Below, in pieces: positions 28,909 to 56,032 of a stretch of 64,000 nt of DNA. The notes under the pieces are model-generated. The model was not told where the DNA came from, made no database searches, and saw nothing but the letters and a program-made list of their open reading frames with translations. The stretch comes from Pseudomonas asplenii (lineage in GTDB: Bacteria > Pseudomonadota > Gammaproteobacteria > Pseudomonadales > Pseudomonadaceae), in assembly GCF_900105475.1 (NCBI RefSeq), contig NZ_LT629777.1, forward strand, positions 3,968,001 to 4,032,000, given 5' to 3'. Each line of letters begins with the position of its first letter. The first letter of the stretch is position 1. Position numbers and translations under genes: made by a program.

Positions 28909-28955
28909 AATATTGCGCTACAGAGTTCCACTGAATTCTATAAGCGATTGAAATC

Positions 28956-28976: not shown

Positions 28977-29130
28977 CGTTCCAGCGGGAACCACTGAAAT
29001 CCAGCACTATCCGGTGCGTTTAAGTCCAGGATTGAGTCCAGAATCCTGACGCGTACCGAATCGGTTTGATGCTGGAGCAGTTTGCGCAACGAGATGAGCA
29101 TCTGGCCCTGACTCTGTTCAGGAGCTCGCG

Positions 29131-34017: not shown

Positions 34018-34172
34018 AAAATTACTCATGCGTTTTAGGAATGTTTTTAGTTCATAAAATATCCCTTTGTCTACTTTATTTTAAGCGGTACAAATGAGTC
34101 ACCGAGCACCCCCGACAAGAAAGCTCGAGCGAAAGAATTTTCAATCTGCTCACATAAATACGAGGGTTCACC

Positions 34173-34997
34173 ATGAAGTTTTCCTCCCTAGGCCCAATTG
34201 CGGCACTCGCGCTGCTCGCCGCTTCTTTCAGTGTCGCCGCTCACGCCGATCAGCTTGCTGAAATCAAATCTCGCGGGGCCCTCGTATGTGGGGTTTTAAG
34301 TACGCTCGATCCGTTTGGCTATATGGATCCGAACACTCGTGAAGTGGTCGGCTACGATGTCGATTTCTGCAAGGGTGTCGCGAAGCAGTTGGGCGTGAAG
34401 CCGGAACTGCGTCAGTTGTCTCTCGATGCTCGTATCCCGGAGCTTAGCCAGGGACGTGTCGATGTACTGGCCGCAGTACTGGGGTACACACCTGCGCGTG
34501 CCACCCAGATTGCCTTTTCCGATGCTTATTTTCTTTCTCTGCAGAAACTTGCAGTGCAGCAAGACAGTGGCTTGAACGCGTTGGCAGACCTGAACGATAA
34601 GCGGATCAGCTCAATCAAGGGATCCAGTACCCAGAATTTTGTGAAGGCAACCATTCCAGGGGCCAAGATTGTCAGTTACGACGATGCACCTTCAGCCTTT
34701 ATGGCGCTGACGCAGCGCAAGGTGGATGGGTTTGGATTGACCGAGGCAATGCTTCGTCGATTCATCATCAAGTTGGGACCAGAGGCTACACTGAAAGTTA
34801 TCGACGCTCCTTTGGGGCAGGAGCAATGGGGGCTCGGAATCAAGAAGGATGAGCCTCAGTTGCTAGCAGCCGTCAATACAGCGCTCAATAAAATGGAAGA
34901 GTCGGGCGAGGCCCAGGCGATTTTTGACAAGTGGTTGGGCAAGGACAGCGTCTACCATATGGAGCGCACTTTCAAAGTCGAGCCGATCAAGCCCTGA
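34173..34997 (+). CDS. Amino-acid ABC transporter substrate-binding protein
   Basis: 274 residues. Signal peptide (MKFSSLGPIAALALLAASFSVAAHA), then an SBP family 3 fold: IKSRGALVCGVLSTLDPFGYMD, VVGYDVDFCKGVAKQLGV, LSQGRVDVLAAVLGYTPAR, KRISSIKGSSTQNFV and the C-terminal AIFDKWLGKDS. It binds a polar amino acid in the periplasm. First of four transporter genes followed by an oxidase and RidA. Ligand not identifiable; the neighbours suggest a D-amino acid or glutamate analogue. Confidence 0.93.
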   Translation: MKFSSLGPIAALALLAASFSVAAHADQLAEIKSRGALVCGVLSTLDPFGYMDPNTREVVGYDVDFCKGVAKQLGVKPELRQLSLDARIPELSQGRVDVLAAVLGYTPARATQIAFSDAYFLSLQKLAVQQDSGLNALADLNDKRISSIKGSSTQNFVKATIPGAKIVSYDDAPSAFMALTQRKVDGFGLTEAMLRRFIIKLGPEATLKVIDAPLGQEQWGLGIKKDEPQLLAAVNTALNKMEESGEAQAIFDKWLGKDSVYHMERTFKVEPIKP

Positions 34998-35049
34998 TCT
35001 CCTTTAGGTCGCGTAGCCGGGGCGAAAGCCCCGTGCTTGGAGAAGCCCC

Positions 35050-35751
35050 GTGCCTGATTTTTTCAAGTCTGTCTTATTATTATTCAATGCGCCTTATGGA
35101 GAAATTTTACTTCAGGGGATTCTACTCACAACTTGGCTGACATTGTTCAGCTTCGTCCTGGCGGTGATACTCGGAACCTGTCTTGCGATGTTGCGAGTGT
35201 CCGGAAACGCATTTTGCGAACGTCTGGTCGCAGCTTACGTTTCCTATCAGCAAAACGTGCCAATGTTGGTTCATATACTGCTTTGGTATTTTGGCGTGTC
35301 GAATGTGCTTCCCATGTTCATGCAGGACTCTCTTAACTATTTTGGTTCAGAGTTCATCTATCCTGCTATCGCCATTGGGTTGTGCATGGCTGCCTATTAT
35401 TCCGAAGATATTCGAAGTGGCTTGCGAGCCATCCCTCATGGCCAGCATGAGGCATCGCGGTCTCTTGGATTGAGTTATTTAAAATCCATGCGCTACGTGG
35501 TGATTCCGCAGGCGTTAAGAATATGTGCTCCTCCTTTTATCAATCACACTGTGCTGCTTTTTAAGAACACCAGTTTGGCGATGGCGGTAGGGGCTGCGGA
35601 AATGACGTATGCAGTGCGTGATATCGAAAATCAGACCTTTCTCACCTTTCAAGCGTATTCCATCGCAACCTTGTTTTATTTGGTGGTGTCGCTGGCCCTG
35701 ATGGCGTTGGGAAGCTATGTCGCTCATCGCACCCGCATTCCGACGAGGTAG
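35050..35751 (+). CDS. Amino-acid ABC transporter permease 1
   Basis: 233 residues, five transmembrane segments of the HisM/GltJ type. The EAA loop is SGLRAIPHGQHEASRSLGLSYLKSMRYVVIPQALR (positions about 120-155). Starts with GTG after GGAG. Local DNA is notably AT-rich relative to the core genes, consistent with acquisition. Confidence 0.92.
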   Translation: MPDFFKSVLLLFNAPYGEILLQGILLTTWLTLFSFVLAVILGTCLAMLRVSGNAFCERLVAAYVSYQQNVPMLVHILLWYFGVSNVLPMFMQDSLNYFGSEFIYPAIAIGLCMAAYYSEDIRSGLRAIPHGQHEASRSLGLSYLKSMRYVVIPQALRICAPPFINHTVLLFKNTSLAMAVGAAEMTYAVRDIENQTFLTFQAYSIATLFYLVVSLALMALGSYVAHRTRIPTR

Positions 35752-35753
35752 GT

Positions 35754-36491
35754 ATGTTCGAAATTATTGCGAATAACTGGCAACAGCTATTGGTCGGGCA
35801 ATATCCTCAAGGGCCATTGGGCGGCCTGGCACTGACGATGATACTGTCAGTCCTCGGGCTCGTCATCGCGTTCCCACTGAGTGTGGTGTTGGCGTTCTGT
35901 CGGATATCACCCTACAAGATGCTCAATATCCCTGCGACGGTCCTGGTTTATGTCGTCCGCGGGTTACCGTTGGTTATGCTTGTGTTCTGGAGCTATTTTC
36001 TTGTTCCTGTGTTGGTAGGCCAAAGTGTAAGTGGATTCACTGCATTAATTTGTACATTAGTGATTTACGAGGCCGCCTACCTTTCTGAAGTGGTCAGGGC
36101 GGGGATTCAATCCATTCCGGAGGGGCAGGTCGAGGCCGCACGTTCGCTGGGTATGAGTTACAGGAAGACAATGTTCAAAGTTGTTCTTCCTCAAGCATTG
36201 TATAACATGGTTCCCAGTTTAATCAGTCAGTTCGTTTCTCTCATCAAAGAGACTTCGATTGGGTATGTTATCAGCGTTCAGGAAATCACATTCTCGGCCA
36301 ATCAAATCAATACTCAGTTGCTCACGAAGCCATTTGAGGTTTTTGCAATCCTAGCGCTTACCTATTACATCCTGTGCTTCTGTTTGACACAGCTTGCAAA
36401 ATGGGCTGAACGCCGGACGACGCAAAAACGTTTAGGTTTAAGATCTCCGAAGGGGGGTGAATTAAATGATCAAATTCTCGAAAGTCAATAA
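35754..36491 (+). CDS. Amino-acid ABC transporter permease 2
   Basis: 245 residues with five transmembrane segments ([39 protein letters not shown]). EAA loop: [20 protein letters not shown] followed by [15 protein letters not shown]. Starts 2 bases after permease 1 and overlaps the ATPase gene by 26 bases, so translation is coupled. Confidence 0.92.
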
Positions 36492-37194
36492 GTGGTATGG
36501 CGAATATCAGGCCCTTGTCGAGGTGACCGCCGCAGTTGCGCAGGGTGAGGTTGTCGTTGTATGTGGTCCCTCGGGTTCGGGTAAGTCGACACTGATCAGA
36601 ACGGTTAATCGATTAGAAGAGATCCAAAAAGGCAGCATTCATTTAAATGGACAAGATATACATGCCGAAGGCTTGGACCTTAATGCCTTTCGGACCCAAG
36701 TCGGCTTTGTGTTCCAGCAATTCAACCTGTTTCCGCACTTATCGGTCGTGGAGAATATTTGCCTGGCTCCATTAACGGTGCGTCATCAAAGCAAAGCAGA
36801 GACTAAGTCGAAAGCCATGTCGCTTTTGGAGCGTGTGGGCTTGGCTCATAAGGCTGAGGCTTACCCACAACAACTTTCTGGCGGACAACAACAACGTGTC
36901 GCCATTGCCAGGGCGCTGGCAATGGATCCCCCTGTGATGTTGTTCGATGAGCCTACCAGTGCGCTCGATCCGGAAATGGTAGGGGAGGTATTGGCCGTGA
37001 TGAAGGAGTTGGCCAGGGATGGGATGACCATGGTGTGCGTAACCCACGAGATGAATTTCGCCCGTGAGGTTGCAGATCGAATCTGGTTCATGGACAAGGG
37101 AGCGATTTTGGAGGAGGCGAAGCCTGCTGTGTTCTTCTCAGCGCCTGAACACCCGCGTGCGCAGGCTTTCATTTCGGACTTGCGTAACCACTGA
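36466..37194 (+). CDS. Amino-acid ABC transporter ATP-binding protein
   Basis: 242 residues, GlnQ/HisP type. Walker [14 protein letters not shown]-loop [10 protein letters not shown], signature [15 protein letters not shown], Walker [15 protein letters not shown] and switch His in VTHEMNFA. Energises the permease pair. GGGGGTG precedes the ATG inside the permease gene. Confidence 0.96.
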
Positions 37195-37204
37195 GAGTCA
37201 TCCA

Positions 37205-38479
37205 ATGAGCGTCACAAGTGATTCAGATGGGCGAGATGTCGTGGTTGTAGGCGCGGGTATTGTTGGGTTGTCCATCGCCCTTAGACTTCAACTTGAAGGA
37301 TGTCGAGTTACAATAATTGACCATAACGAACCCATGACCGGCTGTTCTGCGGGGAATGCCGGTTACTTTTCTGAAGCGAATATATTTCCGCCGGCAACGC
37401 CGGATCTCCTTCTTCAATTGCCTCGGCTGCTGTTCTCGAAAGAAGGGCCTCTGGTGATCAAGCCGGCTTATCTGGGGCGCATGATCCCTTGGTCAATGCG
37501 CGCGGTGAGCGTGTTGAAACCCGCGCCCTATGCGAAGGTGATGAACGCGCTTTCGAGCTTGATCATCCGTTCTCAGGACAGTATCAACGAGCTCGCCAGT
37601 GCTACGGGTGCTGCTCATCTCATTACCCGTAACGGCGGACTGCATGTATACCGCTCTGAGGACGCACTCAAGGCAAAGCTCAAGGCGCTGCCCAATTGGG
37701 AAAACCAGGGTGTTACGGTCGAAGTTCTGGATGGTCCGCAGGTGCGCGCCTTGGAGCCTGCTCTTGCGAGCAATGTCATCGGCGGCCTTTATTTTCCTCG
37801 ATCGGGTCGGTGCAGCGATCCCAAGGAGCTTGGACTTCACTATTTCAGGTATTTGATCGAGAAGGGCGCGAAGTTCCTGCGGTCCACCTATCTCGGCGTG
37901 GAAAGGGACATGAATGGCATGCTTGAGGTTGTGCTGTCGGGACGGCGACTGACGGCCGCCAAGGTCATTATTTCTACCGGACATGCCGCTGACAAACTGC
38001 TACAGGGATTTGGTTACAAGTCCGCTCTGGTTGCTGAGCGCGGATATCATCTGATGTTGGCTGATCCAGGCGTGAGCCTGAGCCGCCCAATTGTATTTGG
38101 AGAGGCGTATTTTGCCGCTACGCCGATGGACAGAGGGCTTCGCTTCGCGGGTACAGCTGAATTCTGCCGTCCGGATGCACCGCCGGACATGCAGCGATCA
38201 TACATGCTTCAACAGTTGGCGAAGCAATACCTCCCCAGTCTTACCTGTGCCGCGGGACAACCGTGGATGGGCGTACGGCCCTCGCTGCCGGATGGCCTGC
38301 CAGCGATAGGCCAAGTGGCTGGGCAGCCGGGTCTTTTCTACGCCTTTGGTCACGCACACAACGGGCTGACGACATCCGCCGTCACTGCGCAATGCGTAGC
38401 GTCTCTTGTGCTGGGCCACCAGCCGCCTGTTGATCTCAGGCCTTTCGACTATAACCGCTTCGGCCATTCAGCTTTTTAG
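37205..38479 (+). CDS. FAD-dependent D-amino-acid dehydrogenase-like oxidoreductase
   Basis: 424 residues. N-terminal dinucleotide fold VVVVGAGIVGLSIALRLQLEG followed by an acidic end (TIIDHNEPMTG); SAGNAGYFSEANIFPPATP resembles DadA; C-terminal FAD contact YAFGHAHNGLTTS. The family oxidises D-amino acids (or glycine derivatives) to imines, passing electrons to quinone or oxygen. Sits 10 bases after the ABC ATPase and 11 before RidA: import, oxidation and imine hydrolysis in one operon. Start ATG after GAGAG; the upstream extension overlaps the ATPase. Confidence 0.88.
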   Translation: MSVTSDSDGRDVVVVGAGIVGLSIALRLQLEGCRVTIIDHNEPMTGCSAGNAGYFSEANIFPPATPDLLLQLPRLLFSKEGPLVIKPAYLGRMIPWSMRAVSVLKPAPYAKVMNALSSLIIRSQDSINELASATGAAHLITRNGGLHVYRSEDALKAKLKALPNWENQGVTVEVLDGPQVRALEPALASNVIGGLYFPRSGRCSDPKELGLHYFRYLIEKGAKFLRSTYLGVERDMNGMLEVVLSGRRLTAAKVIISTGHAADKLLQGFGYKSALVAERGYHLMLADPGVSLSRPIVFGEAYFAATPMDRGLRFAGTAEFCRPDAPPDMQRSYMLQQLAKQYLPSLTCAAGQPWMGVRPSLPDGLPAIGQVAGQPGLFYAFGHAHNGLTTSAVTAQCVASLVLGHQPPVDLRPFDYNRFGHSAF

Positions 38480-38490
38480 GATATTTATAA

Positions 38491-38841
38491 ATGCCCATCA
38501 TCGAACGTTTCGAGCAGAACTCTATTAATGCGCGGGTCGTGCGCGCCAACGGCTTTGTTTTTGTTGGCGGTCAGACTCCAGACGATCTCACCCAGGATAT
38601 CGCGGGCCAAACGGTCCAAGTACTTAAAAAAATCGACCATTATCTTAAGTCAGTAGGCCTGGATAACACCCGGATCGTATCGGCTCAGGTATGGGTCAAG
38701 GATATCGCTCGCGACTTTGACGCAATGAACGCGGTTTGGGCGGCATGGGTACCACAGGGACACGTACCTGCACGGGCAACGGTTGAAGCGAACTTGCGGT
38801 ATGAGGATATGCTGGTTGAGATAGCGGTCACCGCGGTTTGA
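38491..38841 (+). CDS. RidA-family imine/enamine deaminase
   Basis: 116 residues (YjgF/RidA fold). The conserved Arg lies in HVPARATVEANL and the C-terminal Glu in MLVEIAVTA. It hydrolyses reactive imines to keto acids and ammonia, matching the product of the adjacent amino-acid oxidase. Last gene of the operon. A hairpin (38864-38871 with 38879-38886, AGCGCTTT) separates it from the convergent pxpA. Confidence 0.92.
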   Translation: MPIIERFEQNSINARVVRANGFVFVGGQTPDDLTQDIAGQTVQVLKKIDHYLKSVGLDNTRIVSAQVWVKDIARDFDAMNAVWAAWVPQGHVPARATVEANLRYEDMLVEIAVTAV

Positions 38842-38906
38842 TCCTTATTGTTTTTCGCCGCAAAGCGCTTTGAAGGGCAAAGCGCTCCTTGACTGTGCTA
38901 GTTGTG

Positions 38907-39683
38907 CTACAGGCCTTTTCGTTCGGTGAGCGATTGGAGTGTCCAACCATTCGCCTGCAGGCAATGCTTGACCGCAGCGGCCATCTCTAAGGCCTCTGAT
39001 GAGTCGCCGTGCACACAAATGCTATCGATTTTTACCGGCAGACGGGTCCCGGTTACCGTGGTGATATGATTCGTCTCGATCATGTCCAGTACCCGCCGCG
39101 CCGCGATCTCCGGATCATGTATTACTGCGCCAGGCAGCTTGCGAGACAGAAGGTACCCACTTTCGTCATAAGCACGATCCGCAAAGATTTCCCGCGCCAC
39201 CCTCAGGCCTGCTCGTTCGGCCACACGCTCCGTGAGGCTATAGGGCGGGATGACGAAGATCATGTCAGGATCCACTGCTTTTACGGCGTTGACGATCGCT
39301 TGGGAAAGTCCTTCGTCCACCGCCGCCATGTTTCCAAGCGCTCCATGCGCTTTGAAGTGTGTCACCCGGCCGCCATGAAGCTTGGTGACAGCCTGCAGAG
39401 CACCTATTTGATAGGCGACGATCTGCTCGATGTCTGCGGGCGATTGCCCAGGTATCTGGCGGCGACCAAAGCCCCATAAATCCATAAAGCCTGGATGCGC
39501 GCCGATGCCGACGTTTTCCTTTAAGGCCTTGGTGACGGTGTCTCTCATTACGAGAGGGTCACCTGCGTGAAAACCGCATGCCACATTGGCGGATGTCACG
39601 ATTTCCAAAAGCGCGGCATCGTTTCCCATGGTGTACGGGCCATAGCTTTCCCCCATGTCGGAATTCAAATCGATGAACTTCAT
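38907..39683 (-). CDS. pxpA: LamB/YcsF-family 5-oxoprolinase subunit A (cluster 1)
   Basis: 258 residues. Family motifs: IDLNSDMGESYGPYTMG, SANVACGFHAGDP, GIGAHPGFMDLWGFGRR, HGALGNMAAVD and DSICVHGDS. PxpA acts with PxpBC in the ATP-dependent opening of 5-oxoproline to glutamate in E. coli. Overlaps the carrier-like gene by 4 bases. Last gene of the MFS - pxpB - pxpC - carrier - pxpA operon. Confidence 0.93.
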   Translation of the reverse strand: MKFIDLNSDMGESYGPYTMGNDAALLEIVTSANVACGFHAGDPLVMRDTVTKALKENVGIGAHPGFMDLWGFGRRQIPGQSPADIEQIVAYQIGALQAVTKLHGGRVTHFKAHGALGNMAAVDEGLSQAIVNAVKAVDPDMIFVIPPYSLTERVAERAGLRVAREIFADRAYDESGYLLSRKLPGAVIHDPEIAARRVLDMIETNHITTVTGTRLPVKIDSICVHGDSSEALEMAAAVKHCLQANGWTLQSLTERKGL

Positions 39684-40120
39684 TCAATCGCTCCTTGGCA
39701 ACGCAGTTTGAATAAGGCTGCGCCGTAATCAACGGTCGTGCCTGGTTTCACCAGTACCTCTTGAATCACCCCATCGGAATGGCTGATGACGGGAAAAAGC
39801 AGGAATCCAATTTGGATGAAACCTACCGTTTCCCCGGCCGTAATAGTGCGTTCTTGACCGTATACGTCATAGCGCCTCGCCGGATGAAAAGGTAGAAAGC
39901 TCCCGATTCCTGGACTCTCAATCACAGGGGAGGGCGCCGCTGCCGGGAGCAGCAGTCGCGCTGATTGTGTGGTTGCGGTTACCGGCAACGTCTGCCGAGG
40001 GGAAATTGCCTTTTTGACGAGCCGAACGCTGAGCGTCGCGCTATCCAGTTCGAGTTCCTCAAAGTGGCTGGCGGCAAACGCACGGCAAAGTTCGCTGATT
40101 TCCGTAAAACTCATGGACAC
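39680..40120 (-). CDS. Biotin-carrier-like protein without the biotin lysine
   Basis: 146 residues. N-terminal helix region FTEISELCRAFAASHFEELELD and C-terminal biotinyl/lipoyl-like domain (about 75-140) as in AccB subunits, ending IQEVLVKPGTTVDYGAALFKL. Where carrier proteins have the hairpin E-(V/A)-M-K, this protein reads FIQIGFLLFP, so the biotin-accepting Lys is replaced by Phe106. No biotin carboxylase gene is present in this operon, unlike the cluster at 56-60 kb. It may be a structural subunit that no longer carries CO2. Overlaps both neighbours. Confidence 0.85.
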   Translation of the reverse strand: MSMSFTEISELCRAFAASHFEELELDSATLSVRLVKKAISPRQTLPVTATTQSARLLLPAAAPSPVIESPGIGSFLPFHPARRYDVYGQERTITAGETVGFIQIGFLLFPVISHSDGVIQEVLVKPGTTVDYGAALFKLRCQGAIE

Positions 40121-41055
40121 ATGACCCCTCGAAGCGTTGAAAGCCTGTCGAAGTAGTCTTGTTCATCTGCTTCCGCTTCGGCAGCCTCTTCAATCGAGCA
40201 ATGTCGAAATTGTATGATCTTGCCCGGCGCGAATTGCGCGATAAGCCTCAGGTCGCTTGAAATCACCGAACCTAACCGTGGATATCCGCCAGTAGTCTGT
40301 GCATCAGCAAGCAGTACGATGGGTTGTCCACTCGGTGGTAACTGGATCAAACCCGGCAGGACACCATAGGAAAGCAGCTCAATATGACTGGCAAACTGAA
40401 TCATCGGTCCTTCCAGTCGGAAACCTATCCTGCTGCTTTGCCTGGATATGGTCCAGTCTGCCTCGCAGAAGGAACGCACATGCGCCTGGGACAATTGGTC
40501 CATTTCAAATCCCGGTACAAACCTGATGACGTTACTGTCAGGTATACCTGGTGGTGAGGCGCCAAAACTGTAGTGTGTCTCAGATGATCGGTCGCTTCGT
40601 ATGGCGAGCCGGTCACCGGCTCTAAGTGTCCGGCCGTGATGCCCGCCGAATCCGCCTTTCAGATCAGTGCTGGCGGATTCCAATACTGTCTCAACATCGA
40701 GCCGGCCAGCGAAAGTGAGGTATCCGATACCACCGTCGGGACCAGATTCAATTCGCAGTATTTGTCCCGTATGACCAGTGGTTCTCCACCAGGGGGGAAG
40801 TTCTTTGCCATCCAGCAGGGCCTTGCCAGTTGTGCCCGTCACGGCAAATGCCTGAGTCGTCAGAAAACGTATCTCGATAGGGAATATCAGTACCTCAATG
40901 GCTGGTCTGTTGGCCTCATTTCCCAACAGTGCGTTTCCCACCTGCAAGGCGAGGGCGTCAAGCGCACCTGAAGAACCCACCCCCAGTTTCCGATGACCAA
41001 ATCGTCCTAGATCTTGCACGCTACACCCAGGCATGCACTTCAAAATTTCGATCAT
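40111..41055 (-). CDS. pxpC: PxpC-like carboxyltransferase-family subunit (cluster 1)
   Basis: 314 residues of the AHS2/PxpC family: CSVQDLGRFGHRKLGVGSSGALD at the N-terminus, YLTFAGRLDVETVL, GGFGGHHGRTLRAGDRLAI and GLIQLPPSGQPIVLLADAQTTGGYPRLG near the C-terminus. The GSRSTY motif of typical members is replaced by ESASTD, so it has diverged from the standard type. It forms a complex with PxpB. Confidence 0.9.
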   Translation of the reverse strand: MIEILKCMPGCSVQDLGRFGHRKLGVGSSGALDALALQVGNALLGNEANRPAIEVLIFPIEIRFLTTQAFAVTGTTGKALLDGKELPPWWRTTGHTGQILRIESGPDGGIGYLTFAGRLDVETVLESASTDLKGGFGGHHGRTLRAGDRLAIRSDRSSETHYSFGASPPGIPDSNVIRFVPGFEMDQLSQAHVRSFCEADWTISRQSSRIGFRLEGPMIQFASHIELLSYGVLPGLIQLPPSGQPIVLLADAQTTGGYPRLGSVISSDLRLIAQFAPGKIIQFRHCSIEEAAEAEADEQDYFDRLSTLRGVMCP

Positions 41056-41711
41056 GCTGTGACACCCAGGATTTCAAACCTCACCGTATCGCCCGGAGCA
41101 AGCAGCGCCGGAGGCGTGATACGGTGATCGAAGAACACCGTATCGGTCGTGCCTATCAAATTCCAACCGCTAGGCAAGGTGGCCGCAGTGACCCCGGCCT
41201 GGCTGCCACCTATGGCCACAGTGCCCTTGCTGACACTGGCTCTTGGCTCCGCGCGACGGGGTATATGCAGTTGCGGATCTAACCCGCCCAGATAAGCAAA
41301 ACCTGGATGAGCCCCCAGGCAAAAGACGGTGTACTCGGCCATTGCGTGGCGCTTAACGAATGCGTCGATCGGCAGGCCCGCATAATGTGCTGCTTGAGCG
41401 AGATCAGCTCCGCCGTCACCGCCATAATGGACACCGATAGTAACGGTAGAGGTGATTCGTGCCTGGCTTTGCTCTGCACATTGGTCCCAAAGCTCTGATA
41501 GCAGTGGAAAGGCGTTTTCCCTTGCGCCTACGGAGTCAAGGATCAGCAGCAGGTTGTTCATACCTGGCACTGTTTCGACCAAGCCTGGGAGGCAGCGGCA
41601 GGCTGTGTCTAAAGACCAGTAGATCCTCTGCATCCCGATAGAAGCCTGACCTTGTTGGGACTCGATCAGAATCCCTCGCGTGCCCATGCGGTGATATTTT
41701 GGAGCGTTCAT
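41052..41711 (-). CDS. pxpB: PxpB/KipI-like subunit (cluster 1)
   Basis: 219 residues of the AHS1 family. VHYGGDGGADLAQAAHYAGL, FCLGAHPGFAYLGGLDPQLH, PRRAEPRASVSKGTVAIGGSQ (split here as one continuous family block) and GWNLIGTTD. The usual APGFPYL tract reads AHPGFAYL. The ATG at 41711 follows GAGG. Overlaps pxpC by 4 bases. Together with PxpC it would phosphorylate and open a lactam ring. Confidence 0.9.
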   Translation of the reverse strand: MNAPKYHRMGTRGILIESQQGQASIGMQRIYWSLDTACRCLPGLVETVPGMNNLLLILDSVGARENAFPLLSELWDQCAEQSQARITSTVTIGVHYGGDGGADLAQAAHYAGLPIDAFVKRHAMAEYTVFCLGAHPGFAYLGGLDPQLHIPRRAEPRASVSKGTVAIGGSQAGVTAATLPSGWNLIGTTDTVFFDHRITPPALLAPGDTVRFEILGVTA

Positions 41712-41866
41712 CGTGCCTCGCGTTGAGCGCCAGATCTGAGCTGAGCAATCACCTGATCGCCTCATCGGCGATGCGGTCTGGCGACTTGCTTTAGAGAGAC
41801 GCGGTAGTTGATTTCATGACCGAGATGCAACCCACGGCGCTAGCCGAGGCTTGCCAAGCGGCTTGC

Positions 41867-43204
41867 TCATGAACTGATATGTTCCAGCGGTTGTTTGCGG
41901 GTTTCTTTCCCGACAAACGCGATGATTAAAGCGAAAGCCAAAAGCACCGCGCCCACTATTCCAATCACCAGCCTAATGCCTCCCGCCGCGAATATCGCGG
42001 GGATCGCAAAGGGGATCATTGTCGCCACTAGCCTTGCGACGGCACTGCACGTGCCGGTTCCTCGCATCCGAAGCCGGGTTGGGAAAAGTTCGGACAAGTA
42101 GATGGCTTGCCCTACGACAACGACGGTATAAATCGACGATATGAGAAGGAAACCTACGCCGATCAGAGTGGCTTCATCCGTCAAAGATACGTAGACGGCA
42201 GCTAAAACAGCCGCGCAAATGGCCGCGCAGACGAGGATGGGTTTTCTACCCACCCGGTCCACCAAAAGTAGAGCGATTAAGCCTCCTACGGGCCCGCCAA
42301 AACTCATGATTGTGTTCCACTGCAGCGACTTCACGATGCCAAGCCCCTGCTGAACAAAGAACGAAGGCAACCAACTGACGAGACCGTACAGGCAAATTTG
42401 GATAGTGATCATGATGGATATGCCCACCACCATCTTGGAGCGTTGACCTCTTTGGAAGAGATCCCCGATGGCTGCAGTCTCGATGGCCGCAGCCGGCCCG
42501 GTGGGATGTGAAGGAGCGAGAGGGGCAACGTTCATCGATTTTTCCACCGAGGAGACAATTGCATCCGCTTCGTCAAATCTGCCTTTGGATGCGAGCCAGC
42601 GTGGAGATTCCGGCATGGACTTTCGCAGTCCCCAGATGATCAGCGCTGCGACGCCCGCTATGCCGAACATCCACCGCCAACCCAGGTTTGGTATGACCCA
42701 CAGCGCACAGGCACCAGCGACGAACAAGGCGGACTGGGCAATAAAAGACAAGAATGCAACGAGTCGGCCGCGCTTCGCAGGCGGAACGAACTCGCTCAAT
42801 GTGGCAAACCCCAGAACCAGTTCGCCCCCCAAGCCTATACCCATCAGAAAACGCAAGCCGATCAAGACGTACATGTTTGGAGAGAACGCGGCGGCTAAGG
42901 ATGCAAGGCCGAAAATCGCCAAATTGATCTGGTAGCAATAGCGCCGGCCAATCCGATCACCAAGGATGCCGGAGGTCCAAGCACCAATAATAAATCCCAT
43001 GAAGGTCGCTGAGATAAACCAAGCATTCAGCTGCGTGGTGCTCCACTGTTCAGCTAGAAGTGCTCCCAGCACGCTGCCCGCCAAGGCGAGTTCAAAGGAG
43101 TCGAGAAACAAGCCCGCGCCGATCATGAAAATCAGCCGGTAGTGAAAACGCCCGACCGGGAGTCGATCCAGTCTGCTGGCAATACTGAGCTCGGAATGCT
43201 TCAT
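41867..43204 (-). CDS. MFS metabolite:proton symporter
   Basis: 445 residues with 12 transmembrane helices. Motif A-type loops SGILGDRIGRRYCYQ and LLVDRVGRKPIL; the FLSEFVPPAKRGRLVAF-type loop after TM4-5 and LSELFPTRLRMRGTGTCSAVAR are those of the aromatic-acid/metabolite MHS branch. First gene of the pxp operon, 155 bases upstream of pxpB, so probably imports the substrate. A shared operator lies about 195 bases upstream. The ATG at 43204 follows GACGAG; a TTG at 43219 is an alternative. Confidence 0.9.
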   Translation of the reverse strand: MKHSELSIASRLDRLPVGRFHYRLIFMIGAGLFLDSFELALAGSVLGALLAEQWSTTQLNAWFISATFMGFIIGAWTSGILGDRIGRRYCYQINLAIFGLASLAAAFSPNMYVLIGLRFLMGIGLGGELVLGFATLSEFVPPAKRGRLVAFLSFIAQSALFVAGACALWVIPNLGWRWMFGIAGVAALIIWGLRKSMPESPRWLASKGRFDEADAIVSSVEKSMNVAPLAPSHPTGPAAAIETAAIGDLFQRGQRSKMVVGISIMITIQICLYGLVSWLPSFFVQQGLGIVKSLQWNTIMSFGGPVGGLIALLLVDRVGRKPILVCAAICAAVLAAVYVSLTDEATLIGVGFLLISSIYTVVVVGQAIYLSELFPTRLRMRGTGTCSAVARLVATMIPFAIPAIFAAGGIRLVIGIVGAVLLAFALIIAFVGKETRKQPLEHISS

Positions 43205-43590
43205 GCGCTTACTCGTCAATGAGTGGTTGGGCTTTGCTTAGCGATCGCCCGGTTGCGGCAGAGGATTCAGGTTTTGATGTGTTGAGTTGGTCGCAGCAGC
43301 GCGGGTCTCAACGAGCGGTGTTCGATGCTGGTGGTGCATCTTTGCCCTCCCAGTGTTTGTTGTTTTGTGGATAGTACGATGGGGTCGTGAGTCATTTAAG
43401 CGATATTTAGTGATCGCTCAAATTCACTTTTTTTCATGTTTTGGTGCGGCTGCGCTGTTGCCATTGGATTGTGGTGCTGTTCGTGGCGAGCAAGCGTTTT
43501 GCTCATTCAGAAGGGCTCGGCATTGCGGGATCGGAACTTTAGAGATAGTTTCGATGCTCGTATCTTTACTTTTATTCATGAGGTTTTTCA
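43205..43590. other. Divergent promoter region between the MFS gene and LysR gene
   Basis: About 390 bases with no gene. Holds the operator dyad at 43399-43418 near the centre and a T-rich stretch to its right. Confidence 0.6.
43399..43418. promoter_or_regulatory. Operator dyad, copy 1 (GCGAT-N8-ATCGC)
   Basis: AGCGATATTTAGTGATCGCT. Its reverse complement shares GATC-x-CTAAATATCGCT with the rraA upstream site at 44615-44631 (16 of 17 positions). Placed between divergent MFS and LysR genes, where LysR proteins bind. Confidence 0.7.
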
Positions 43591-44511
43591 GTGATCACGT
43601 TCAAGCAGCTCGAGGCCATTTACTGGATTGTCGAGTTAGGTAGCTTCGAATCTGCGTCGACGAAGCTGAACATGTCTCAGTCGGCAATTTCCAAACGAAT
43701 ACAGGAGATGGAGGAGGCCTTTGATACTCCCATTTTTGACCGAACGAAACGCAGTGCGCGACTGACCGAAAAGGGGACGGAGCTTTTCGAGTACGCGGCC
43801 GAAATGCTCCGTCAACGCGACTATCTTTTGGAGCGAATCAGCTCCAAACAGGTTCTGGTCAGACGTTTCAGGCTTGGCGTAACGGAACTGACGGCGCTGA
43901 CCTGGCTGCCGGCGCTGATCGAGAGTATTCGAGATGCGTATCCCATGGTCGCCCTGGAGCCATCTGTCGAACTTAGCTCGGAACTGTTCAAGAAGTTGGA
44001 GGCAGATCAACTCGACCTCATCATCATCCCGGACGTTTTCAGCGATGCGAGATTTGTCTCGACACCGCTCAAAACGGTAGAAAATGCTTGGATGAGTGCT
44101 CCGCACCTCTTCGATCGTCCCTGCCCAGTCGATCTACAGGAGTTGGCTTCATTTACTGTGCTGACGCAGGGAGGGAGTTCAGGAACGGGGCTGATCTATG
44201 ATCGATGGTTTGCACAGCATAATGTGCGCTTTAATCGCGCTATCACCAGTAACTATCTGGTCGCCCAGGTGGGGCTCACGCTGTCAGGGCTCGGTATCAG
44301 CTATCTCCCCAAGGAATGCTTGGCCCCGCTATTGGAGCAAGGCCTGCTCAGGGTGATCGAGACGCGGCCAGGGCTGCCACAAGTGCGTTACGCAGCGTTG
44401 CACCGTGCTGACCGATTACTGGGGCTAAGCGTGGAGGTGGCGCGACTGGCCGCGCAAACCTGTGATTTCGGGACAATGCTTCTGCAGGGGCGCCACTCAG
44501 CCGTGGGTTGA
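43591..44511 (+). CDS. LysR-family regulator of the catabolic cluster
   Basis: 306 residues (GTG start after GAGG). HTH: FKQLEAIYWIVELGSFESAS with SQSAISKRIQEMEE. Effector domain segments LGVTELTALTWLPAL and LSGLGISYLPKE are nearly the same as in the LysR at 33-34 kb, marking them as paralogues. Divergent from the MFS-pxp operon and upstream of rraA; the shared dyads suggest it controls both. Confidence 0.92.
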   Translation: MITFKQLEAIYWIVELGSFESASTKLNMSQSAISKRIQEMEEAFDTPIFDRTKRSARLTEKGTELFEYAAEMLRQRDYLLERISSKQVLVRRFRLGVTELTALTWLPALIESIRDAYPMVALEPSVELSSELFKKLEADQLDLIIIPDVFSDARFVSTPLKTVENAWMSAPHLFDRPCPVDLQELASFTVLTQGGSSGTGLIYDRWFAQHNVRFNRAITSNYLVAQVGLTLSGLGISYLPKECLAPLLEQGLLRVIETRPGLPQVRYAALHRADRLLGLSVEVARLAAQTCDFGTMLLQGRHSAVG

Positions 44512-44602
44512 TAGCCGCGCGTGCGCTGCCTGTCCTTCGACTCGCCATATAAGAAGGAACGAGGCTTTCTCTCTAAACTGATGCAACGTTTCATCACTCT
44601 AG

Positions 44603-44631
44603 GCGATCTTTTTTGATCGCTAAATATCGCT
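44603..44631. promoter_or_regulatory. Operator dyad, copy 2, with an extra half site
   Basis: GCGAT-CTTTTTTG-ATCGC (44603-44620) has the same N8 spacing as copy 1; a third ATCGC half lies at 44626-44630. The site ends about 73 bases before the rraA start codon. Confidence 0.7.
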
Positions 44632-44703
44632 AAAAGTATCTGTTTGCCTTCCATAAGATTAATGGGCAGCCCCCAGGGCTCCCACCTTATCCGGAGGTTT
44701 CTC

Positions 44704-45369
44704 ATGTCATTGCCAGGTACTCGTATTCTTCCTTCTCCTGCGCTCGCTTCTTCGGAAACGATCGAATCCTTTCGCAGCGTTGTAACGCCTCATATCAGTG
44801 ACAACCTGGGTCGTCACATTGGTGCCCGCGGGCTCAATCGATACAACCGGACGGGCAAGCTGGTGGGAACCGCGCTGACAGTTAAAACCCGACCGGGCGA
44901 CAACCTTTACATTTATAAGGCGCTCACGATGATCGAGCCTGGCCACGTGTTGGTTATCGACGCGCAAGGCGACGAGACCAACGCAGTCATCGGTGAACTG
45001 ATCAAGCTCTACGCAGAACAACGGGGCTGCGTAGGCTTTATCGTAGACGGGGCGATCCGTGATGTAGCCGCTTTCGAAAACACGCCGCTATACGCCCGCA
45101 GCGTCGTGCATTGCGGTCCGTACAAGAGCGGTCCTGGTGAGATTAACGTGCCTGTTTCCATCGGCGGCATGATCGTAAACCCAGGTGACATCATTGTGGG
45201 AGACGAGGATGGCTTCGTTGCCTTTTCCCAGGCAGACGCACCTGAAGTGTTGCGCAAGGCGAAGCAGCACGAGGCCCATGAAGAAGAAGTGAAAGCCGAA
45301 ATCGCCAGTGGTGAGGTTTATCAGGCATGGCTTGATAAAGTGCTGAAAAACAATGGCTTGGCTGGATAA
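44704..45369 (+). CDS. RraA-family aldolase/decarboxylase
   Basis: 221 residues. Family motifs: VVTPHISDNLGR, LVGTALTVKTRPGDNLYIYKAL, GHVLVIDAQGD, GFIVDGAIRDVAAF (Arg-Asp pair that binds substrate and metal) and VNPGDIIVGDEDGFV. Catalytic members cleave 4-hydroxy-4-methyl-2-oxoglutarate to two pyruvate or decarboxylate oxaloacetate; the presence of the RD pair points to an enzyme rather than an RNase E inhibitor. The ATG follows GGAGG. The aminotransferase gene begins 12 bases later. Confidence 0.9.
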   Translation: MSLPGTRILPSPALASSETIESFRSVVTPHISDNLGRHIGARGLNRYNRTGKLVGTALTVKTRPGDNLYIYKALTMIEPGHVLVIDAQGDETNAVIGELIKLYAEQRGCVGFIVDGAIRDVAAFENTPLYARSVVHCGPYKSGPGEINVPVSIGGMIVNPGDIIVGDEDGFVAFSQADAPEVLRKAKQHEAHEEEVKAEIASGEVYQAWLDKVLKNNGLAG

Positions 45370-45381
45370 GGGGACAGGTCG

Positions 45382-46590
45382 ATGAGTCAGCAGTTTCTAT
45401 CCGAACGCGTATTGGGCATCGCGCCGTCCCCCAGCGTCGAAGCTAACGCTTTAGTAGGCAAGCTCAGGGCTGAAGGCAAGGACATCGTCAACTTCACCAT
45501 TGGCGAACCCGATCTGGATACCCCGGGGCACATCCTGAAAGCCGCACAATATGCGATGGAGCATGGGGAAACCCATTACACGAGCACCACAGGCACACTC
45601 GCTTTACGCGAAGCCATTATCTTGAAATTGCAGCGTGACAACGGTGTCTCGTATGGCCTGGACGAAGTCGTTGCGGGCTGTGGCGGCAAGCACATTATTT
45701 ATCACGCCCTGGCGGCGACGCTGAATCGTTATGATGAGGTGATCGTTCACACGCCGTACTGGGTGTCCTACCCGGATATCGCCAAACTGAACGATGCCAC
45801 TCCGGTCATTATTCCTGGCTGCGAGTCGAATGGATTCAAGCTCCAACCCGCGGAGCTTGACGCAGCAATTACTCCGAAAACGAAGTGGGTGATCCTCAAT
45901 ACTCCGAACAATCCCAGTGGCGCAGTCTACAGCGAGGCAGAGCTGGAAGGCCTAGCCAAGGTATTGAGAAAGCACCCGCACGTGCTGATCATGTCCGACG
46001 AAATCTACGAGCATTTCGTTTACGGCGAATCCGCCCATCTGTCACTCGTCAAGGTGGCGCCCGATCTAAAAGAGCGGACTCTGATACTCAATGGCGCCTC
46101 GAAAGGCTACGCGATGACGGGCTGGCGTCTGGGCTTTGGGGCCGGCCCTAAATTCCTGATCGCTGCGATCGGCAAACTGTTGTCCCAAACGACCACGTGT
46201 CCTAGCTCGATCAGCCAGGCCGCGGCAGTCGCAGCCTTTGCCGGTGATCAAGCGCCTATCCAGTCCATGCGCGAAATCTACACGGCACGCAGGGAGCGTA
46301 TGGCTGAGCTGCTGCGTCCCGTTGGAGGCGTGACTTTCACTTTGCCCGACGGTGCTTTCTACATCTATGCCAATGTCGCTGGACTTATAGGTAAGAAAAC
46401 CCCAGCGGGAGTAAGCATCCAATCGGACACCGAACTGGTCAAATTTCTGTTGGAAGAAGGGGGCGTGGCCACCGTGGCCGGAGCGGCATATGGGCTTTCG
46501 CCCTATGTTCGACTGAGCTTCGCGAGTTCGATGGACGTCATTGAAGAGGGCTGTAAACGGTTCCAAATGGCCTGCGAAAAATTGTCCTGA
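45382..46590 (+). CDS. PLP-dependent aminotransferase (aspartate aminotransferase type)
   Basis: 402 residues, fold type I. NFTIGEPDLDTPGHI at the start, TPYWVSYPDIAKL, NTPNNPSGAVY, SDEIYEHFVYG and the PLP lysine in NGASKGYAMTGWRLG; C-terminal Arg in YVRLSFASS binds the substrate carboxylate. It would move an amino group from a dicarboxylic amino acid. Between an RraA aldolase and a dicarboxylate symporter gene, which fits conversion of a glutamate analogue to its 2-oxo acid. Confidence 0.93.
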   Translation: MSQQFLSERVLGIAPSPSVEANALVGKLRAEGKDIVNFTIGEPDLDTPGHILKAAQYAMEHGETHYTSTTGTLALREAIILKLQRDNGVSYGLDEVVAGCGGKHIIYHALAATLNRYDEVIVHTPYWVSYPDIAKLNDATPVIIPGCESNGFKLQPAELDAAITPKTKWVILNTPNNPSGAVYSEAELEGLAKVLRKHPHVLIMSDEIYEHFVYGESAHLSLVKVAPDLKERTLILNGASKGYAMTGWRLGFGAGPKFLIAAIGKLLSQTTTCPSSISQAAAVAAFAGDQAPIQSMREIYTARRERMAELLRPVGGVTFTLPDGAFYIYANVAGLIGKKTPAGVSIQSDTELVKFLLEEGGVATVAGAAYGLSPYVRLSFASSMDVIEEGCKRFQMACEKLS

Positions 46591-46662
46591 AGCTAACCCC
46601 TCCACGCGCGCCTCTCCAGGCGCGCATGAAAGATCATTTATTAAAATAAAAGGCGAATAGCC

Positions 46663-47919
46663 ATGAATAAGCCACGCATACCCCTAGTTATTCAAATAAT
46701 GTTGGGGCTGGCCGCTGGTATTGTAGTTGGCGCGATCCTTCATCAATTCCCAGAATTGCGCCCATGGATGATCAGTAATGTTCTTCAACCTGCCGGCGAC
46801 ATTTTTATTCGTTTGATGAAAATGATCGTCGTCCCGATCGTCTTTGCCTGCATGGTTGTTGGCATTGCGGGTAGCGGTGATGGCAAATCCTTAGGTCGCG
46901 TGGGTGCAAAAACCCTGGGCTATTTTTTTGCGGTCACCACCACCGCCATTATCGTGGGGTTGGTCATTGGCAATCTGCTGCAGCCAGGTACAGGCACAGA
47001 CCTGGCCAGCCTGAAGGCTGCGGATATCAATATTGCGGCGACCAGTACAGCCAATCACGGTATCGCGCAGATAATCCTGAATATCATCCCTGATAACATC
47101 GTCGATGCCATGGCAAAGGGCAATTTGCTACCAGTGCTGTTCTTTGCCGTTATGTTCGGGCTTGGCGTATCGAAGCTGCCCAAGGAGCGCAAGCAGCCAC
47201 TGATCGACAGCCTGCGCGGCGTTTCCGAGGCGATGTTCAAGATAACGTCGATGATCATGGCGTATTCACCCATAGGCGTTTTCGGCATGATCGCAGTGAC
47301 CGTCGCGAACTTCGGGTTCGGATCACTCCTTCCGCTGGTCAAGCTGATTCTCGTCAGCTACGCAGCCATCATTTTCTTCGCTTTCGCCGTATTGGGTTCG
47401 ATCGCCAAATTTGCAGGCATTGATTTCATCGGTCTGATCAAGCATCTCAAAGATGAACTGATCCTGGCGTTTTCCAGCGCCAGCTCGGCAGCGGTCATGC
47501 CGCAGCTCATGGCCAAGTTGGAAACCTTTGGCGCACCGCGGTCGTTGGTCAGTTTCGTTGTGCCGATTGGATATTCTTTCAATCTGGACGGGGCGTCGTT
47601 GTTCTTGGGTATCGGTACGTTGTTCGTTGCGCAGCTTTATGGCATTGACCTGAGCCTCTCCACCCAGGCCTTGCTGGTCGTTACGATGGTTTTGACCTCG
47701 AAAGGGGCAGCTGGCGTCCCTGGGTTCATGTTTGTCATTCTGTCCGCCACGTTGGCGAGCGCGGGATTACCGCTGGAGGGAATTGCATTTATTGCGGGTG
47801 TGTACCGCCTGATGGACATGCCTACTACTGCGTTGAACGTCCTGGGCAACGCACTGGCACCGCTGGTGATTGCCAAGTGGGACGGCGTTTTTCAAGGTAG
47901 TTGTCGCGTCACCGTCTAA
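46663..47919 (+). CDS. Dicarboxylate/amino-acid:cation symporter, C-terminus replaced by IS end
   Basis: 418 residues of the GltP/DctA (DAACS) family: MKMIVVPIVFACMVVGIAG, FSSASSAAVMPQLM (serine-rich hairpin), GYSFNLDGASLFLG and MPTTALNVLGNALAP. The last native residues are about KWDGVF; the final SCRVTV and the stop come from the terminal repeat of the IS at 47898. Only a short tail is lost, so the protein may work. It would import glutamate- or aspartate-like compounds. Confidence 0.9.
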   Translation: MNKPRIPLVIQIMLGLAAGIVVGAILHQFPELRPWMISNVLQPAGDIFIRLMKMIVVPIVFACMVVGIAGSGDGKSLGRVGAKTLGYFFAVTTTAIIVGLVIGNLLQPGTGTDLASLKAADINIAATSTANHGIAQIILNIIPDNIVDAMAKGNLLPVLFFAVMFGLGVSKLPKERKQPLIDSLRGVSEAMFKITSMIMAYSPIGVFGMIAVTVANFGFGSLLPLVKLILVSYAAIIFFAFAVLGSIAKFAGIDFIGLIKHLKDELILAFSSASSAAVMPQLMAKLETFGAPRSLVSFVVPIGYSFNLDGASLFLGIGTLFVAQLYGIDLSLSTQALLVVTMVLTSKGAAGVPGFMFVILSATLASAGLPLEGIAFIAGVYRLMDMPTTALNVLGNALAPLVIAKWDGVFQGSCRVTV

Positions 47920-49670: not shown

Positions 49671-50295
49671 CTATAGCGTTGCTGGATGAGTTAGCTCAAC
49701 AAGCGCAGTCGCGTCGAGGTCTGATAGCTGCGGGACCCCTAGCAGTCCCAGGTCTCGCGTTAGCTCATCCTTGATCAGCTTGATTGCATGGGACACGCCG
49801 GCCTCTCCTGCCATGGTTGCAGCGTAATTAAACGGTCTACCGACAAATACGGCCTTGGCACCCAAGGCCATCGCTTTTATCGCGTCCGTGCCGCGTCGTA
49901 TGCCGCTATCGAGCATCGTAACCATGTCAGGCGCTGCCTCGATAATCCTTGGGAGGATCACCAATGGGGCAACACTGCTGTCGAGCTGCCGCCCGCCATG
50001 ATTCGATACGATGATTCCATCGACACCGAAGTTGGCAGCTTGGGTAGCGTCCTTTGGATTCAAGATGCCCTTGATGATCAGGGGGCCTTTCCAACGGGCG
50101 CGAATCTTCGCGATATGTGCCCAATTGAGATGTCCCCTATCGGAAAAATCCCTTAGGACGTATGCCGACATGATCGGAGCCCCGCGGGTAGCGTAGTTAT
50201 TCTCGAAATGAGGCATCCCGTGCCGATAGAGTGTTTTAAAGAAAGTGCTGATTAACCAAGTGGGATGGCTAATGCCTTGCACTGCAAGGCGCAGG
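49671..50295 (-). pseudogene. FMN-dependent 2-hydroxy-acid oxidase, 3' fragment
   Basis: About 207 codons from the C-terminal half of the LldD/glycolate oxidase family: LIIKGILNPKDATQAANFGV (FMN Lys), GIIVSNHGGRQLDSS with the catalytic His and Arg, MLDSGIRRGTDAIKAMALGA and AVFVGRPFNYA. Full enzymes have about 380 residues; the 5' half was removed where the IS remnant begins at 50296. Not functional as it stands. Confidence 0.8.
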
Positions 50296-50753
50296 TGTAG
50301 TGGTCTACCAATCCCGGACACCTTTTTAGGCGAGAATGTTCGTCAGATCGAGGTGTCAGATGACCAAAAAATGCCGAACAGGGATCGCATGCTCACAAAA
50401 AAACGACGGTCGAGCGGCCCGACATCCCTAATATTTTGAACCGGGAGTTTGATGTGCCTGCTCCTGAGCAGGTCTGGTGTGGCGATATCACTTACATCTG
50501 GGCTCAAGGAAAATGGCAGTACCTCGCGGTTGTGCTGGATCTTTTTGCCCGTCGTGTTGTGGGCTGGGCATTGTCGGGAAAGCCGGATATCGACCGTGGG
50601 CTACATGACGGCTCAAGAAGCTCTGCGGGATATCAGCCATTTCTTGATGCACAGATACAACTGGGTTTGACCGCACCAGTTGAACGGCGGGCTGCCACCG
50701 GCTCAGTCCGAGAAAAAACTTAACATCGTGTCCGGGATTAGTTGACCACTACA
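50296..50753 (+). mobile_element. Internally deleted IS3-family remnant with both ends
   Basis: Ends TGTAGTGGTC...ATCCCGGACAC (50296-50321) and its reverse complement (50728-50753) agree at about 24 of 26 bases. Inside are the first codons of an OrfA (MTKKCRTG), then an OrfB piece (VPAPEQVWCGDITYIWAQGK, LDLFARRVVGWAL), a jump to the OrfB tail (GYMTAQEALRDISHFLMHRYNWV) and stop codons. At 458 bp with ends kept it resembles a MITE in the making. Confidence 0.8.
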
Positions 50754-55921: not shown

Positions 55922-56032
55922 ATGCGTGAACTCCAAGACCGGACAAAGGTTGAAGCGCGGGCAGCCATCACCGCACCGAAGTGCGGCGTTGGTATACCGT
56001 CAGGCATGGCCCGCGCTAAACGGAGGGCAGAA

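Follow-up and report, generated by a model that had tools for sequence, protein, structure and literature searches.

The DNA considered here (the window) is a stretch of 64,000 nucleotides from contig NZ_LT629777.1 of Pseudomonas asplenii, part of a one-contig genome of 6.53 Mb, and its open reading frames (ORFs) were checked with Pfam and NCBIfam models. It holds an operon for PxpA, PxpB and PxpC homologues, an operon for an RraA-family protein, an aminotransferase (AAT) and a symporter, and an operon for an amino acid importer, accompanied by three LysR-type regulator genes; by comparison with Pseudomonas sp. EpS/L25, these are a conserved unit of 17 genes spanning 32210 to 47919. A sequence-only reading had proposed the interval 38907 to 47919 as a single catabolic regulon. 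The nine ORFs that it named were all recovered where it placed them, and their families were confirmed by Pfam and NCBIfam. The interval does hold these nine genes, but it is too short, given that the conserved unit starts at 32210, and the gene set was incomplete, as the third operon (an ATP-binding cassette [ABC] importer, a DadA-like oxidase and a Rid protein) had been overlooked. The features of the unit are as follows.

32210 to 33148, minus strand: LysR2, a paralogous LysR regulator (Pfam HTH_1 and LysR_substrate; syntenic copy in EpS/L25).
33085 to 34029, minus strand: LysR3, a paralogous LysR regulator (Pfam family match; copy in EpS/L25).
34029 to 34100, plus strand: Operator 3 (predicted), a relative of the LysR1 operator with a AAATATCCCT core, upstream of ABC-DadA-Rid.
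34173 to 34997, plus strand: substrate-binding protein of the amino acid ABC importer (SBP_bac_3).
35050 to 36491, plus strand: the two permeases of the importer (BPD_transp_1).
36466 to 37194, plus strand: ATPase of the importer (GlnQ-like, under the equivalog cut-off).
37064 to 38479, plus strand: DadA-like FAD amino acid dehydrogenase (PF01266); its real start is probably later than 37064, past the ATPase gene.
38491 to 38841, plus strand: Rid-family protein of the imine/enamine deaminase type (PF01042).
38907 to 39683, minus strand: pxpA (LamB/YcsF; PF03746; NF003814 over cut-off).
39680 to 40120, minus strand: lysine-less biotinyl-carrier-like protein (weak TIGR00531 match).
40111 to 41055, minus strand: pxpC (CT_A_B; PF02626; TIGR00724 over cut-off).
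41052 to 41765, minus strand: pxpB (CT_C_D; PF02682; TIGR00370 over cut-off).
41867 to 43219, minus strand: major facilitator superfamily (MFS) transporter (first in-frame ATG at 43204; 96% identity to the EpS/L25 protein).
43365 to 43436, minus strand: Operator 1 (predicted) and MFS-pxp promoter, AGTGA...AAATATCGCTTAAA-N18-TACTAT.
43591 to 44511, plus strand: LysR1, the proposed activator (Pfam/NCBIfam LysR; HTH_1 and substrate domain).
44594 to 44665, plus strand: Operator 2 (predicted) and RraA-operon promoter, GGCGAT...AAATATCGCTAAAA-N18-TAAGAT.
44704 to 45369, plus strand: putative RraA-family lyase of the E-X20-R-D type (PF03737; PRK06201 over cut-off).
45382 to 46590, plus strand: AAT, a class I aminotransferase of the aspartate aminotransferase type (nearest solved structure 6f77).
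46663 to 47919, plus strand: GltP-like glutamate/aspartate symporter (PF00375), its tail changed at an insertion sequence (IS) junction.

A search for genomes that keep both of the originally named operons together had been suggested as a check, and EpS/L25 is such a genome: it holds the same 17 genes, split over two contigs. One of its loci (L038) reads pxpB-OprD-MFS-LysR1-RraA-AAT-GltP, with a gene for an OprD-type porin inserted between MFS and pxpB, and the other (contig C5, L225) reads LysR2-LysR3-ABC-DadA-Rid-pxpA-carrier-pxpC. Both contigs end in pieces of an IS4/5-family transposase at pxpC, from which we infer that pxpC is split by an IS and that the two parts were probably contiguous. 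The idea that EpS/L25 carries a shortened operon was rejected, as pxpC, the carrier, pxpA and the ABC operon sit on the other contig. DNA identity between the two genomes is 75-79%, and synonymous divergence (dS) exceeds 1.1 or is saturated. The ratio of nonsynonymous to synonymous divergence (dN/dS) is 0.015-0.114 in the 12 noncarrier genes where it could be calculated (four are saturated), with a value of 0.036 for the substrate-binding protein of the importer; at 0.25, the carrier evolves faster than its neighbors. The island, as these ratios indicate, is under purifying selection.

What would tie the operons to one regulator? The dyad GCGAT-N8-ATCGC, which had been noted upstream of both the MFS-pxp and RraA operons, has exactly two matches in the window, against an expectation of 0.22, and a count of two was attained in 2 of 100 shuffles, evidence that is weak on its own. 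Both dyads exist, then, but the dyad was rejected as the conserved operator because its register differs between the two promoters: it falls on the downstream operator half before MFS and on the upstream half before RraA. The element shared before RraA in other genomes is AAAAGCGAT-N14-AAATATCGCT-N22-TANNAT; ATATCGCT occurs within 160 bp 5' of RraA in 47 of 54 loci (L038 to L091), and an exact copy of GCGATATTTAGYGATC occurs twice in the 6.53 Mb of the genome, once in each of the two promoters and in opposite orientations, with five further sites that differ from it at two letters.

A position weight matrix (PWM) was built from 45 distinct promoter blocks of other genomes, with the window and EpS/L25 (L038) excluded, duplicates (L044) dropped and RraA loci L092 to L117 kept out of the promoter alignment. 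Its three best sites in the window lie upstream of RraA (54.7 bits), MFS-pxp (18.1) and the ABC operon (3.7), and the score then drops to -24.3 for the fourth. One strand of 6.5 Mb of random sequence yields nothing better than -30.0, and the maximum for column-permuted matrices over 300 trials is -19.8. In EpS/L25, operators 1 and 2 score 33.3 and 44.6 bits. Operators 1 and 2 of the window each match 26 of the 29 high-information columns (Operator 3 matches 18), and both have 22 nt from ATCGCT to the -10-like hexamer. A sequence-only profile of 44 of the 45 blocks, from which the outlier L090 was omitted, finds exactly two sites in the P. asplenii genome at expectation values (E) up to 10, one before RraA (3.4e-11) and one before MFS-pxp (1.4e-3; 0.00144), and in EpS/L25 it finds both homologous sites plus one weak extra match (contig C11, L226), which led nowhere.

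Beyond these two genomes, 29 of 298 in a Pseudomonas sample match the operator profile at E 0.01 with stricter filters: all 25 that hold a PRK06201-type RraA at at least 72% identity, an overlap that is partly circular because many training promoters come from the same genomes, plus 4 of the 273 others. Three of the four (G084, G157 and G181) match weakly, and one (G256) has a strong site (L210) before an aminotransferase 67% identical to AAT; the weak matches in G149 and G181 were set aside, their surroundings (L211 and L212) being without any query gene. LysR1 is present in 44 of 48 Pseudomonas/Pantoea RraA loci (L038 to L085), and the ATATCGCT element precedes RraA in 44 of the 44 loci with LysR1 and in 1 of the 4 without it (Fisher 2.3e-4, which is not a clean probability, as the loci are related and some come from the same genome). 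Further LysR1-type sites in relatives stand before transporter operons adjoining RraA or AAT. Three loci have a second site before an operon in which an MFS gene is joined by one for a 2-hydroxyacid dehydrogenase (L073, 39 bits; L074, 34; L077, 31), and in L206 to L209, a site of 60-72 bits lies before MFS4-RraA_D2, beside LysR8-RraA_D1-AAT. The locus thus has what is expected of the regulon of a LysR-type transcriptional regulator, namely, the regulator gene beside its targets and a specific predicted operator before both operons. Based on the matrix, the profile of the P. asplenii genome, the EpS/L25 sites and the column matches, all of which support the earlier claim, we consider co-regulation of the MFS-pxp and RraA operons highly probable.

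The third operon appears to have regulators of its own. Operator 3, the third-best PWM site in the window, has an exact AAATATCSCTWWR match, is kept in EpS/L25 and is similar to sites at the LysR3/LysR2 pair of L072 and in front of RraA in L078, a locus where LysR1 is absent and the LysR2/LysR3 pair stands beside RraA. Because of this likeness, Operator 3 is probably a LysR2/LysR3 operator. The pair also adjoins LysR1-RraA-AAT-GltP in L043, L060 and L072, a proximity that links the third operon to what the other two do. Of the products of the third operon, the DadA-like protein falls short of its model (PRK00711, 179.9 bits versus a cut-off of 383), and the Rid protein scores 51.7 bits with TIGR00004 (cut-off, 106.25).

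PxpA, PxpB and PxpC are encoded together, with PxpC under its equivalog cut-off (NF045499, 281.9 bits versus 500). Their companion, earlier called a degenerate carrier, is indeed without the biotinyl lysine of the (A/V)MK(M/L/Q) motif: aligned with 4hr7, it has Phe in that column, and the lysine is also lacking in P0006 and EpS/L25. A lysine-less carrier recurs in 19 of the 20 best PxpC neighborhoods (L148 to L166 range; the L161 copy looks frame-shifted, and its site is unreadable), and 19 of the same 20 hold an intact EAMKM carrier, while L167 has neither. The lysine-less protein is therefore a conserved second carrier of Pseudomonas Pxp clusters and would presumably serve as a structural subunit. 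The window operon (38907 to 43219) shares PxpA, PxpB and PxpC homologues with Pxp clusters that include biotin carboxylase and biotin carboxyl carrier protein, and with the 19 neighborhoods it shares the lysine-less carrier, but it has neither AccC nor an intact carrier. Another cluster of the former kind lies at 54599 to 60391 of the window and consists of pxpA, an intact carrier (EVMKQ), biotin carboxylase, pxpB, pxpC and a transporter with a weak NCS1-type match; a divergent LysR gene stands beside it at 60472, and the LysR1 PWM has no match at this operon.

The second operon encodes a protein of the RraA fold (PF03737, 143.8 bits versus 24.5; best solved match, 3noj) that keeps the Arg-Asp of the pyruvate/metal site in comparison with 3noj. 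AAT lies under the PRK06107 cut-off (538.9 versus 617 bits), and its closest solved relative is aspartate aminotransferase A (6f77). The transporter, described earlier as a dicarboxylate symporter, is an SDF symporter but is GltP-like (glutamate/aspartate) rather than DctA-like, although under the equivalog cut-off (PRK11283, 556.1 versus 638 bits). The families of AAT, GltP and the amino acid ABC importer suggest an acidic amino acid as the substrate, and that of RraA suggests that a 2-oxo acid is cleaved or decarboxylated.

Which acid might this be? We surveyed 80 RraA loci with flanks of up to 10 kb a side (some contigs are shorter), in which a LysR-RraA-AAT core is common. RraA_D genes occur in 10 of the 48 Pseudomonas/Pantoea loci; 6 of the 10 have at least one gene for a CoA-transferase III, an acyl-CoA dehydrogenase, a hydratase-like protein or a RipC-like lyase, and 5 have sulfopyruvate-decarboxylase-like thiamine pyrophosphate (TPP) genes. 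Among the 48, loci without RraA_D have neither this methylsuccinate/itaconate-type gene set nor the TPP genes. Locus L093 brings together pxpA/C/B, AAT, three RraA genes, a TPP-enzyme subunit, an aldehyde dehydrogenase, a CoA-transferase III and an HpcH/HpaI-type lyase, a chain that could lead from 4-methyl- or 4-methylene-2-oxoglutarate to methylsuccinate or itaconate, judged by the cluster biochemistry in PMC12290011. In addition, RraA has a gene for an aconitase/isopropylmalate-isomerase-like large subunit as its neighbor in five Burkholderia/Paraburkholderia loci (L110, L112 and L115 to L117), which suggests a hydratase step; for the small subunit, the check covered L110 alone. Because sister clusters adjoin methylsuccinate/itaconate-type genes, we rank 4-substituted glutamates first and aspartate/oxaloacetate second, and a C6-branched 4-substituted glutamate becomes likelier than the window alone implies. 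Even so, a 4-substituted glutamate is a tentative and rather doubtful choice of substrate.

From the genes, the operators, their co-conservation and the purifying selection on them, we posit that the genes from 32210 to 47919 form a single unit for the breakdown of an acidic, glutamate-like amino acid and of the corresponding lactam, a reading to which we assign a probability of about 0.55. We infer LysR binding and the direction of control, as well as every reaction and the substrate class, in the following model. LysR1, at an operator ending 22 nt before the -10 box, would activate RraA-AAT-GltP and MFS-pxpB-pxpC-carrier-pxpA, and LysR2/LysR3 would probably control ABC-DadA-Rid via the related operator. 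The lactam would enter via the MFS transporter and the free amino acid via GltP and the ABC importer. PxpABC would open the ring in an ATP-dependent, biotin-independent manner, with the lysine-less carrier in its structural role; nitrogen would be removed from the L form by AAT and from the D form by the DadA-like enzyme and Rid, and RraA would act as a lyase to split the resulting 4-substituted 2-oxodicarboxylate into pyruvate and a second acid. Our best guess at the substrate is 4-hydroxy-, 4-methyl-, 4-methylene- or 4-hydroxy-4-methyl-glutamate and their 5-oxoproline forms. The pathway as drawn, from import through ring opening and nitrogen removal to cleavage, has slightly less than an even chance of being right. 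More doubtful still than the substrate is the specific proposal that C6-branched amino acids of plants (4-methylene-glutamate, 4-methyl-glutamate, 4-hydroxy-4-methyl-glutamate and the lactams of these) have a dedicated bacterial route, in which an unusual Pxp enzyme with a nonbiotinylated carrier, the transaminase or DadA/Rid, and the E-X20-R-D RraA would act in turn, and from which sister clusters would branch by decarboxylation into methylsuccinate/itaconate degradation.

Several findings weigh against a single catabolic unit. Operator 1 is weak, at 18.1 bits versus a leave-one-out median of 90.4 and a lowest regular value of 39.9 bits for the training sites (the outlier L090 scores -28.7 bits). 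Operator 3 is not among the sites of the genome profile at E up to 10, and its core differs; the third operon may therefore belong to LysR2/3 alone. This PxpB is found in 1 of 398 genomes at E 1e-55 and this carrier in 1 of 144 at E 1e-15, in both cases the P. asplenii genome itself. One more carrier, of 78% identity, is in the protein database, and since the same search missed the 54%-identical EpS/L25 carrier, rarity of the carrier is not proven. A RipC-like lyase was not found in the P. asplenii genome, an empty search result that proves nothing. Finally, 45 of the 48 Pseudomonas/Pantoea RraA loci are without pxp in the fetched flanks, so that the operons largely do occur independently in most genomes, an outcome named in advance as one that would refute the regulon.

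Could the two operons share a regulator simply through assembly of an island near one LysR gene, with 5-oxoproline as the substrate of pxp and another acid as that of the RraA operon? The scarcity of pxp near RraA (3 of 48 Pseudomonas/Pantoea loci, L038, L073 and L074, and 3 of the 32 others, L092, L093 and L113) speaks for this, as do the start of the low-GC region at a tRNA-Gly and an integrase gene and the IS abutting gltP. However, three loci in 48 compare with 0.3 expected (Poisson 0.004), an estimate that assumes about two pxp clusters per 6-Mb genome, with two of the three loci being related P. gingeri strains, and Operator 1 keeps its column matches and 22-nt spacing and is conserved in EpS/L25. 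Moreover, other pxp lineages adjoin RraA or AAT in P. gingeri (L073/L074), in Cupriavidus-type genomes (L092/L093/L113) and in strain LB-090624 (L166). The Pxp proteins there are 31-54% identical to those of the window and hence represent separate lineages; the operator was not demonstrated at these copies. In LB-090624, some 25 kb (L166 and L170) hold homologues of RraA_D, AAT, pxp, ABC, GltP, Rid, DadA and LysR3/2, and AAT, biotin carboxylase, pxp and an ABC importer lie together in 17 of the 20 best PxpC neighborhoods outside the P. asplenii genome (L148, L150 to L161 and L163 to L166), 16 of which have no RraA within the stretch examined. We consider such an assembly unlikely.

An equally improbable alternative is plain use of acidic amino acids, in which GltP would import aspartate or glutamate, AAT would yield oxaloacetate, RraA would yield pyruvate from it, and Pxp would convert ordinary 5-oxoproline to glutamate; this reading requires no unusual substrate. 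The nearest models and structures of AAT are aspartate aminotransferases, the symporter is GltP-like, PxpA and PxpB of the window are over curated cut-offs, and the 4-hydroxy-4-methyl-2-oxoglutarate/4-carboxy-4-hydroxy-2-oxoadipate (HMG/CHA) aldolase, which is of the RraA fold, shows oxaloacetate decarboxylase activity (PMC5065237). Yet aspartate needs no aconitase/isopropylmalate-isomerase-like subunit such as that of the five Burkholderia/Paraburkholderia loci, the methylsuccinate/itaconate-like genes beside sister clusters would be superfluous for it, and several loci have RraA without GltP and with an organic-acid-type MFS transporter instead.

RraA itself supplies the last points against the single unit. 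Its motif, in the window as in all of the 80 loci, is E-X20-R-D and not the D-X20-R-D of HMG/CHA aldolase, which is visible in the 3noj alignment; the protein also scores under both HMG/CHA aldolase cut-offs (TIGR02798, 117.1 versus 304.5 bits; NF006731, 124.6 versus 179), and the earlier label of an HMG/CHA-type aldolase is not supported. The motif speaks for a function other than that of an aldolase, as does the example of an RraA-like protein that serves alginate use as a dehydratase/decarboxylase (PMC8563752), but that the window protein is a dehydratase, decarboxylase or hydratase acting on a 4-substituted 2-oxodicarboxylate, and not an aldolase, seems to us improbable, as Arg-Asp is kept and Glu could stand in for Asp as a ligand.

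How does the proposed unit relate to known systems? It differs from PxpABC operons in having PxpC under the equivalog cut-off, an extra lysine-less carrier and operators shared with RraA-AAT-GltP. Escherichia coli also has a PxpABC 5-oxoprolinase. In the mammalian hydroxyproline route, 4-hydroxyglutamate is converted to 4-hydroxy-2-oxoglutarate and then to pyruvate and glyoxylate; the route proposed here would have in common with it a transamination step and then the aldol cleavage of a 4-hydroxy-2-oxodicarboxylate, but the aldolase family differs there, and the window has an RraA-family protein, lactam opening as a first step and a bacterial regulon. In Corynebacterium glutamicum, the pxpTABC operon (PMC13274462) likewise puts a secondary transporter together with PxpA, PxpB and PxpC, and the window operon has no biotin carboxylase; the C. 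glutamicum regulator, however, is the GntR repressor PxpR and the transporter the NRAMP-like PxpT, whereas the window has LysR and MFS proteins. With the HMG/CHA aldolase of P. putida F1 (3noj; PMC5065237), the window RraA has fold family and Arg-Asp in common, whereas its motif and model scores differ, and no aromatic-ring genes are among the window genes examined. Likewise, the CoA-transferase III, acyl-CoA dehydrogenase, hydratase-like and RipC-like lyase genes of the itaconate/methylsuccinate cluster (PMC12290011) adjoin sister RraA_D-AAT clusters but are absent among the window genes examined, and the lyase of the relatives scores 167.3 bits versus a RipC cut-off of 375. Among the matches listed in a search of the open-access literature, with subscription papers outside it, there was no description of this Pxp/RraA/LysR/carrier system and no bacterial catabolic route for 4-substituted glutamates.

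The borders of the island bear marks of mobile DNA. The stretch left of 38907 has a lower GC content that starts next to a tRNA-Gly and a phage-type integrase gene (28833 to 30147), probably the left border of a lower-GC island; a gene for a DUF3100 protein (30744 to 32114) lies between the integrase and the LysR2/LysR3 pair. On the right, an IS3-type transposase gene directly abuts the gltP stop codon. Because the gltP ORF closes with ~40 bp (47877 to 47919) that match IS-bearing P. syringae-group plasmids and the C-terminal tail is unlike that of EpS/L25 GltP, the tail is probably IS derived. A plasmid search gave 19 records with short matches only: 3 Rhizobium records share a 56-bp piece of the aminotransferase gene, and 16 Pseudomonas records match ~40 bp where gltP meets the IS. 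Just past the IS is a truncated FMN-dependent dehydrogenase gene (49671 to 50321); FMN dehydrogenases (family f15) also occur near RraA in several relatives. In the MFS leader, a short ORF (33 codons; 43238 to 43339, minus strand) that has a plausible ribosome-binding site may be a leader peptide or chance, and the right end of the window holds cyanase and carbonic-anhydrase-like genes (62634 to 63875). In LB-090624, an E-type RraA copy has one in-frame TGA (L171, G081:C55:230152-230799), and a second copy is on another contig. Among candidate gene families of the survey, f120 and f121 were rejected as antisense ORFs over pxpB and pxpC in L073/L074, and f26, which was dropped by overlap only, has no Pfam match and overlaps RraA_D genes.

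The island appears to be made of known parts in a new combination, with a supported regulon and a plausible pathway. It represents a testable regulon with a precise predicted operator and offers two enzyme types, the PRK06201-type RraA and Pxp with a lysine-less carrier. In P. protegens Pf-5, pxpABC mutants are reported to have a root-attachment defect (PMC13390462). If the proposed unit is real, it would link lactam opening to 2-oxo acid cleavage, would give a function to the recurrent annotation "RraA family" and would point to a possible way for plant-associated bacteria to use 4-substituted glutamates.

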